The notes below the pieces were generated by a model that worked only from the letters and a program-made list of their open reading frames with translations, ran no database searches and was not told the origin of the DNA. DNA of 64,000 nt, from NCBI RefSeq assembly GCF_014280075.1, contig NZ_CP047950.1, positions 2,046,001-2,110,000 of the forward strand, given 5' to 3'. The translations under genes were made by a program, and so were the position numbers. This document shows, one piece after another, positions 61,014-62,401 of this stretch; position 1 is the first letter of the stretch; the number at the start of each line of letters is the position of its first letter. The DNA is from Synechococcus sp. A15-62 (GTDB taxonomy: Bacteria > Cyanobacteriota > Cyanobacteriia > PCC-6307 > Cyanobiaceae).

Positions 61014-61739
61014 ATGAGCCGAACCTACCTGCGGGCTGCCGGACTGACTGCCGTGGGGCTCCTGGCCACAGGCTTGTCGCAGGAGAGCACAGCACGGGCC
61101 TTGTTTGACAGCGCTGCTGTGCCAGAGAAGCACTTTGCTGTGCTGGCACAGCCCATCGGCAGGGCCCAGTGGAAACTGCTGGTGCTGGAACAAGTCAAGG
61201 CCCAACCGCGCTGCTGGAGGGCACGCCAGGACGGACTGGTGGAGCCCAGCCTGAATCGCTTCAACTTCAGCGGCATCTGCAAGCGCTACCTGGACAGCAA
61301 TGGCTACTCGCTGCGCAGCGGCGGGCAAGACCTTGGAACCCGATTCCGCTTCCGGCTCAAGCGATCCGGCACATCGCTGAAGCTTGAGGCGCTTGACCCA
61401 CAGCAACGAGCACCACTGCTGGTCGGTCAGGCCAAGATCTCCAAACGCGATCCAAATGGGTTCGTGGCTCTGCAGCTGGAACCGGGCTGGGCTTTGGAAC
61501 GCCGGGTTTACCAGGGACGCCCATTGAACCACCTGTATTTCGCCCACCAGGAACCGGTGAACCGACTGCTCGCGCTGGCCAGCAGACGCGGCCACCGCTC
61601 AGGCTTCAGCCGACTGGGAGCCCCGATGGCGCCGATCACACCACCGCCGTTGCCCGCTGCAACAGCATCACGCCGACGAACCGCACGCCTCGCCAGCACT
61701 GCTCCGATCCGGCTGCAGGTGATTCCTTTCCGCCGCTGA
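61014..61739 (+). CDS. DUF3747 domain-containing secreted protein
   Basis: 241 residues. A signal-peptide-like N-terminus (TYLRAAGLTAVGLLATGLSQ) leads into ALFDSAAVPEKHFAVLAQPIG, then QWKLLVLEQVKAQPRCW (about 52-68), SGICKRYLDSNGYSLRSGGQD (about 84-104) and LQLEPGWALERRVYQGRPLNHLYF (about 150-172). This is the DUF3747 pattern, a cyanobacterial exported family of unknown function. The two cysteines (about 67 and 87) could bond. A basic, low-complexity tail follows. It is divergent from rnhA. Confidence 0.85.
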   Translation: MSRTYLRAAGLTAVGLLATGLSQESTARALFDSAAVPEKHFAVLAQPIGRAQWKLLVLEQVKAQPRCWRARQDGLVEPSLNRFNFSGICKRYLDSNGYSLRSGGQDLGTRFRFRLKRSGTSLKLEALDPQQRAPLLVGQAKISKRDPNGFVALQLEPGWALERRVYQGRPLNHLYFAHQEPVNRLLALASRRGHRSGFSRLGAPMAPITPPPLPAATASRRRTARLASTAPIRLQVIPFRR

Positions 61740-61818
61740 GAACAAACCGTCACAGTGCCAGTTGGGAGAGCGAACAGACAGGGGCTGACAATGGAATCTT
61801 CGCTCTTAGGTTGATCTA

Positions 61819-61917
61819 GTGTGAGGAGTGCTGAACGCCTCTTCAGGGTCGAAACAAGGACAGACTCCTGAACGTGTTCCTCTCGACAAAAGCTCCGCCT
61901 TTGGCGGAGCTTTTTTG
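61819..61917 (+). ncRNA. Candidate small regulatory RNA (Yfr2-like?)
   Basis: The region has its own CTGACA (61785-61790) and TAGGTT (61807-61812) promoter-like boxes 16 bases apart, would begin at about GTGTGAGGAGT (61819-61829), can form stem pairs GAGG/CCTC, CTGAA/TTCAG (61831-61835/61842-61846) and GTCGA/TCGAC (61848-61852/61883-61887), and ends in a terminator. CGAAACAAGGACA resembles the GGAAACA-type loops I recall for Yfr2-type cyanobacterial RNAs. No open frame explains it. Boundaries are inferred. Confidence 0.5.
61891..61917 (+). terminator. Intrinsic terminator after the small-RNA candidate
   Basis: AGCTCCGCC (61891-61899), loop TTT, GGCGGAGCT (61903-61911), then a run of six Ts (61911-61916). 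A perfect GC-rich stem with a U-run on the plus strand; four As upstream give weaker termination on the minus strand. Confidence 0.9.
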
Positions 61918-61934
61918 TTGGCCAGAGAAAATCA

Positions 61935-61963
61935 CAAAAAAACCGACCCTCGAAAGGGCCGGT
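61935..61963 (-). terminator. Intrinsic terminator of the rplA-rplJ-rplL transcript
   Basis: On the minus strand ACCGGCCC pairs with GGGTCGGT (plus-strand positions 61956-61963 and 61942-61949, one G-T pair) around a 6-base loop, followed by seven Us (As 61935-61941). It lies 49 bases after the rplL stop. Confidence 0.9.
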
Positions 61964-62011
61964 GAGTAAACGAGAACAGGGGGGAGAGGGACAAGCCCTC
62001 TCCCAAGGCGA

Positions 62012-62401
62012 TCACTTGAGGGTGACCTTGCCGCCTGCTTCTTCGATGGCCTTCTTGGCAGCCTCGGCGTCTTCCTTGGAGACACCTTCCTTGACGGCCT
62101 TGGGAGCAGCCTCGACCAGAGCCTTGGCGTCGCCCAGACCCAGACCGGTGGCCTCACGGACGGCCTTCAGGACCTTGATCTTGGCGGAGGCGTCGAAGCC
62201 TTCGAGGATCACGTCGAATTCGGTCTTCTCTTCAGCGGCATCGCCACCACCACCAGCAGCGCCGGGGGCAGCCATCACAACACCAGCAGATGCTGCGGCG
62301 GACACACCGAAGGCCTCTTCGATCTGCTTGACCAGCTCGGAAGCTTCAAGCAGGGAGAGGGATTTCAGCGATTCGAGAATTTCGTCGGTTTTTGCAGACA
62401 T
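62012..62401 (-). CDS. rplL: 50S ribosomal protein L7/L12
   Basis: 129 residues. N-terminal dimer helix ([14 protein letters not shown]), an Ala/Gly hinge (residues about 35-55) and the conserved C-terminal domain [20 protein letters not shown]...[22 protein letters not shown]...GGKVTLK. Forms the L12 stalk that recruits GTPase factors. Downstream of rplJ with a 54-base gap, read leftward. Confidence 0.98.

Follow-up and report, generated by a model that had tools for sequence, protein, structure and literature searches.

In the window (the whole 64,000-nucleotide stretch of Synechococcus sp. A15-62 DNA analysed here), the interval between a gene for a DUF3747 protein and rplL is a yfr2 gene and belongs to a known small-RNA system. 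The features of the locus are the following:

61014..61739, plus strand: gene for a DUF3747 protein, the upstream neighbour (Pfam DUF3747, E 4.6e-50)
61745..61763, no strand assigned: imperfect dyad AACTGGCACnGTGCCAGTT with 2 mismatches, upstream of the promoter
61807..61812, plus strand: -10-like box TAGGTT; T, A, T and T stand at -12, -11, -8 and -7 in 23, 25, 23 and 26 of 26 genus copies
61815..61883, plus strand: match to the Cyano-1 (Yfr2 family) covariance model, 55 bits against a curated cut-off of 41
61819..61829, plus strand: 11-mer GTGTGAGGAGT, the Yfr1-core complement at the predicted 5' end of the RNA (position, uniqueness, conservation)
61819..61918, plus strand: predicted yfr2 transcript of about 100 nt (-10 spacing, terminator and fold)
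61843..61871, plus strand: central hairpin whose loop holds GAAACAAGGA, with two-sided changes in 4 of 8 pairs among 50 homologues
61888..61916, plus strand: terminator hairpin and T run (sequence and fold)
62012..62401, minus strand: rplL (ribosomal protein L7/L12), the convergent neighbour (Pfam Ribosomal_L12, E 5.7e-28)

The identity of the gene came from Rfam. The model of Cyano-1 (RF01701), the motif by which the Yfr2 family is characterised (PMC8400943), matched over its full length (positions 1-69 of 69) and was the sole Rfam match of the whole window at curated cut-offs. The initial annotation had proposed a small RNA starting at 61819 without assigning it to Yfr2/Cyano-1, and the match agrees with a small RNA at this place. 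The Yfr1 model (RF01116) scored 12.6 bits on the opposite strand (61795-61846), below its cut-off of 38; the RNA is thus not a Yfr1 but its complement, Yfr1 and Yfr10 being the partners that carry the complementary core. Besides the model match, the window copy shares with the Yfr2 family the conserved Yfr1-complementary motif at the 5' end (the Cyano-1 consensus itself contains the 11-mer), a hairpin with a conserved loop, a terminator, a length of about 90-100 nt, and the presence of several copies in one genome.

The -10-like box ends 6 nt upstream of the 11-mer, and most of the 26 rplL-linked genus copies share its TAnnTT pattern; from this conserved spacing, the expected start of the RNA is the first G of the 11-mer or a base close to it. 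The predicted RNA (61819-61918) would be 100 nt long, close to the length first estimated, with the 11-mer at its 5' end behind its own promoter-like box and ahead of its own terminator, and it outfolded 200 of 200 shuffles (z -3.9). Yfr2-family RNAs are short and abundant and have their own promoter; in the window copy, expression is predicted from the conserved -10 box. A simple promoter and terminator scan detected neither this promoter, since TAGGTT matches only three of the six bases of the -10 consensus, nor this terminator, we think because the T run was counted into the stem, and it returned only a minus-strand terminator at 61963-61942. This terminator-like hairpin (61942-61963), placed for the rplL operon, faces the terminator of the small RNA. 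The central GTCGAAACAAGGACAGAC hairpin has the unpaired loop with GAAACAAGGA-type sequence that is characteristic of Yfr2; cells with two-sided changes numbered 42, where shuffles gave 13.9 and none of 500 reached as many, while the bare number of two-sided pairs was equalled by 167 of 500 shuffles.

The 11-mer GTGTGAGGAGT at 61819-61829 was the sole exact match in the window when both strands were searched, and dinucleotide-shuffled windows (n = 100) had a mean of 0.01 matches, with one window of 100 holding any. As stated in the initial annotation, it is the exact reverse complement of the Yfr1 core, printed as ACTCCTCACAC in PMC2190773. The genome searched for partners, one contig of 2,294,140 bases, contains one Yfr1 match (C1:1628539-1628595) with the core ACTCCTCACAC intact, so that the 11-mer has a partner in trans, and a second Cyano-1 copy (C1:1262880-1262944) with the shorter Yfr1 match GTGTGAGGA. 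Between the window RNA and Yfr1 there are 12 uninterrupted pairs, a perfect local match, and the first 25 nt gave -32.3 kcal/mol with Yfr1, a value as good as which was reached in 0 of 1000 simple shuffles. The Yfr1 core was identical in 50 of 50 genes read, all found by the Yfr1 model, which includes the core. The core in the form CTCCTCACAC occurs at seven sites in the same genome; two of these, each followed by a terminator-like hairpin, look Yfr10-like by eye:

C1:630461-630470, minus strand: Yfr10-like small-RNA candidate (L090), core CTCCTCACAC and hairpin
C1:940135-940144, plus strand: Yfr10-like small-RNA candidate (L091), core CTCCTCACAC and hairpin

Pairing between the Yfr2 5' end and Yfr1 was proposed in 2008 for the MED4 copies, with a bulge and a mismatch (PMC2518516), neither of which the window copy needs, and was shown experimentally in 2019-2020, with Yfr2 as the antagonist (PMC6778093, PMC6974561). 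As described in PMC6778093, Yfr2 and Yfr1/Yfr10 mutually enrich, a Yfr1-repressed reporter in E. coli is restored by Yfr2, the binding of Yfr1 and Yfr10 to the ppa mRNA is blocked by Yfr2, and RNase E cleavage of Yfr2 in vitro is prevented by Yfr1 or Yfr10; in a gel shift, Nostoc Yfr2 binds Yfr1 (PMC6974561). This published evidence concerns pairing in Prochlorococcus MED4 RNAs, E. coli reporters and Nostoc, and antagonism for the MED4 RNAs; by analogy, the two RNAs of the present strain would behave likewise. The initial suggestion that the 11-mer serves Yfr1 pairing, as a sponge or antagonist, is supported and is not new, being the published role of the family (PMC2518516, PMC6778093, PMC6974561), and the exact core is present in the genome.

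Taken together, the 11-mer is very probably the 5' end of a Yfr2-family small RNA with its own promoter, which pairs with the core of Yfr1 and Yfr10-like RNAs and relieves their action. The promoter would drive the RNA from at or near 61819, and transcription would stop at the terminator in the spacer common to the convergent rplL operon. The 5' end would then pair with ACUCCUCACAC, the single-stranded core that Yfr1 shares with Yfr10-like RNAs, and this pairing would occupy the target-binding site of these RNAs, so that their action on mRNAs would be relieved.

Bacterial RNA sponges titrate small RNAs, as do those of ChiX, GcvB and GlmZ. As in these sponges, one RNA would neutralise another through pairing with its seed; unlike them, Yfr2 comes from a family of stand-alone genes that is spread across cyanobacteria and also has its own targets (PMC6778093).

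We examined conservation within the genus (30 genomes; 71 of 76 Cyano-1 matches, the five omitted being all under the cut-off) and across the family. In the genus, 26 copies, one in each of 26 genomes, adjoin both the DUF3747 gene and rplL, and the four genomes lacking a copy so linked are 58-89% complete. The exact 11-mer is present in 25 of these 26 copies, the remaining one (L086) having ATGTGAGGAGT with unread bases just before it. Among the 45 genus copies away from rplL, nine of which score under the Cyano-1 cut-off, none has the full 11-mer, 40 have GTGAGGA and six have GTGTGAGGA.

For the family, the central-hairpin pattern was used for the search without the 11-mer and matched in 137 of 201 genomes; 73 loci were read, 70 from the pattern (30 fetched and 40 chosen to cover genera) and three from other searches. 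The hairpin was present in 71 of the 73 (L156 and L157 are without the pattern), eight of the 71 were not shown to be convergent to rplL, and in the other 63 loci, from 35 genera, the yfr2 copy is convergent (tail-to-tail) with rplL. With the hairpin as anchor, the 11-mer of each of these 63 copies was taken to be the stretch of 11 bases, within the 45 upstream, that matched best; L072 and L107, which are identical and lie towards opposite ends of one contig, both entered the count. Consistently with the conservation in homologous loci that the initial annotation had expected, positions 3-8 and 10 were invariant (63/63) and all 11 positions were kept in 32 copies (GTGTGAGGAGT); 22 copies had GTGTGAGGGGT (A9G only), and in nine copies the change is at position 1, 2 or 11, with A9G in addition in two of them. 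A9G, the sole common change, would keep the pairing with the U of Yfr1 as G:U, which fits the pairing without proving it. The 50 Yfr1 genes read included those of 11 genomes whose rplL-linked copy has A9G, and no compensating Yfr1 change was found in them (G031, G073, G028, G079, G036, G014, G011, G026, G021, G015 and G053). Because alignment A2 was built from sequences required to have GTGAGG before the hairpin, it says nothing independent on the motif; its hairpin core, likewise, was dictated by the search pattern.

This conservation could also be read, with lower probability, as the mark of a Yfr2 5' end that acts mainly on mRNAs, in a Shine-Dalgarno-like role or through RNase E access, with Yfr1 pairing as a secondary function. 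In its favour, hundreds of RNAs are recovered in pull-downs with MED4 Yfr2, which is also an RNase E substrate (PMC6778093), and GAGGAG is similar to a Shine-Dalgarno sequence. In addition, of 30 copies fetched where the genome lacks a Yfr1 model match, 24 retain the 5' GUGAGGAG. However, several of those genomes hold other RNAs with the Yfr1 core, the tolerated changes in the 11-mer keep the pairing with this core or sit at its ends, and antagonism of both Yfr1 and Yfr10 is published (PMC6778093); we therefore consider this alternative unlikely.

The genomes without a Yfr1 match bear on the same question. Across the 201 family genomes, RF01116 was matched in 159 and RF01701 in 186. Decay of the motif in genomes without Yfr1 was not seen, and these genomes, several of which hold other RNA-like loci with the Yfr1 core, are not a clean test. 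In all 13 genomes at least 95% complete and without an RF01116 match under strict filters, CTCCTCACAC was found, at 41 sites, some of which are the complement of the Yfr2 motif; 30 sites were read and 11 left out. By eye, the 30 sites read included the core followed by a terminator-like hairpin in at least 8 of the 13 genomes (G008, G114, G133, G149, G065, G093, G039 and G078), in line with the Yfr10 reports in PMC6778093. In one genus (g8), whose examined genomes have no RF01116 match, a Yfr2-like match was present in 8 of 10 genomes; all eight lie beside rplL, keep GTGTGAGGAGTGT and score under the Rfam cut-off. Four g8 genomes without RF01116 share a sequence around GGTGACTCGGCACTCCTCACACGAGG with a terminator (L274, L281, L282 and L283, about position 1500), possibly a Yfr1 replacement missed by the Rfam model. 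Genome G025 (genus g25), 95% complete, is matched by neither the Cyano-1 nor the Yfr1 model, though it contains CTCCTCACAC three times, which may reflect joint loss of the Yfr1/Yfr2 pair or divergent copies. As for phage-borne Yfr2, none of 18 viral stretches obtained with one loose pattern reached the curated Cyano-1 cut-off, which is no proof of absence.

The position of the window copy differs from what has been described for the family. A scan of named genomes for the hairpin together with the 11-mer, whose position 9 was allowed to be A or G, gave 113 stretches, 101 of them with a convergent rplL within 600 nt; selected on the motif, these stretches are informative on position only. Whereas statements in PMC6778093, PMC1242208 and PMC2190773 present yfr2 positions as unconserved or not fixed, the window copy has an rplL address that recurs in 35 genera among the loci read. 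In the literature searched we found no report of Yfr2-rplL linkage; subscription papers were outside its scope, so this synteny may already be published. Not every lineage has the rplL-linked copy: the best nine copies read from genus g17 have GTGTAGGA instead of its motif, and the MED4 form printed in PMC2518516 resembles this GTGTAGGA. The rplL-linked lineage with perfect Yfr1 complementarity may be new.

An element at this address has been interpreted otherwise, since Table 1 of PMC1242208 (2005) gives an MIT 9313/WH 8102 cluster as a possible bi-directional terminator of the rplKAJL operon. We infer that this cluster is the present locus; a genome whose yfr1 coordinates are those printed for MIT 9313 (G071) carries a hairpin and 5' motif of this kind next to rplL (L236). 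Terminator hairpins do stand on both strands, but it is very improbable that the conserved element serves only to end transcription arriving from rplL and from the DUF3747 gene, with an incidental 11-mer match, given that the Cyano-1 match, the conserved 11-mer and the hairpin all lie upstream of the terminator, with the conserved -10 box in front. Still less credible is a small protein in the frame 61828-61965 with the 11-mer in its leader, for the frame is open but crosses the terminator, and gaps in the homologue alignment are not multiples of three.

Beyond the assignment as a Yfr2 RNA that pairs with Yfr1, the data invite a tentative and rather doubtful evolutionary reading, in which one yfr2 lineage has stood beside rplL since early Cyanobiaceae and was selected for full complementarity to the Yfr1/Yfr10 core. 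It would be the dedicated antagonist of Yfr1-type RNAs, and a sponge that can be switched if a cis helix closes over its 5' end, while the paralogues scattered elsewhere, their 5' end shortened to GUGAGGA, would have turned to other targets. A short unpaired 5' end is a mark of the Yfr2 family; for the window RNA, folding predicts a cis helix between GAGG of the 11-mer and CCUC just before the terminator (61819-61829 with 61878-61883). This helix is a caveat for free pairing and possibly a closed form of the RNA, and the mean unpaired chance of GUGAGGA was 0.36 in rplL-linked and 0.64 in other copies. A CCTC-like stretch recurs before the terminator in many homologues of alignment A2.

The first 25 nt bound the Yfr1 linker with genus means of -23.9 for rplL-linked (n = 25) against -14.3 for other copies (n = 44). 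The rplL-linked copy was nevertheless rejected as an energetically stronger sponge, because net binding of the whole RNA to Yfr1 did not differ (p 0.74) between rplL-linked copies (-12.5, n = 25) and the others (-12.2, n = 42), the 5' end of the former being partly paired in cis. When the start of the other copies was set at GUGAGG, their net binding was -11.2, a slight difference from the rplL-linked ones (p 0.007). Co-folding with Yfr1 in this genome brought the other copy from -68.8 to -85.1 and the rplL-linked copy from -69.3 to -81.0, the slightly larger gain being that of the other copy. The energies computed here thus lend no support to the tentative idea of a dedicated antagonist.

Upstream of the promoter, the dyad AACTGGCACnGTGCCAGTT is the sole site with at most 2 mismatches in this genome. 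Allowing up to 4 mismatches at a fixed distance, it was found in 25 of the 26 genus yfr2 copies linked to rplL and in 18 of the 45 that are not; of 49 further rplL-linked copies, taken from the family at large, only one had it with up to 4 mismatches. From its sequence the dyad at 61745-61763 is possibly a regulator site; its identity with CGRE1, the site of a GntR regulator that PMC6778093 names, was not confirmed.

These data tie what began as a guess at pairing in this interval to the published regulatory pair Yfr1-Yfr2. With its fixed address and perfect complementarity, this yfr2 copy would be a cleaner subject for the study of Yfr1-Yfr2 crosstalk than the imperfectly matching MED4 copies used to date.
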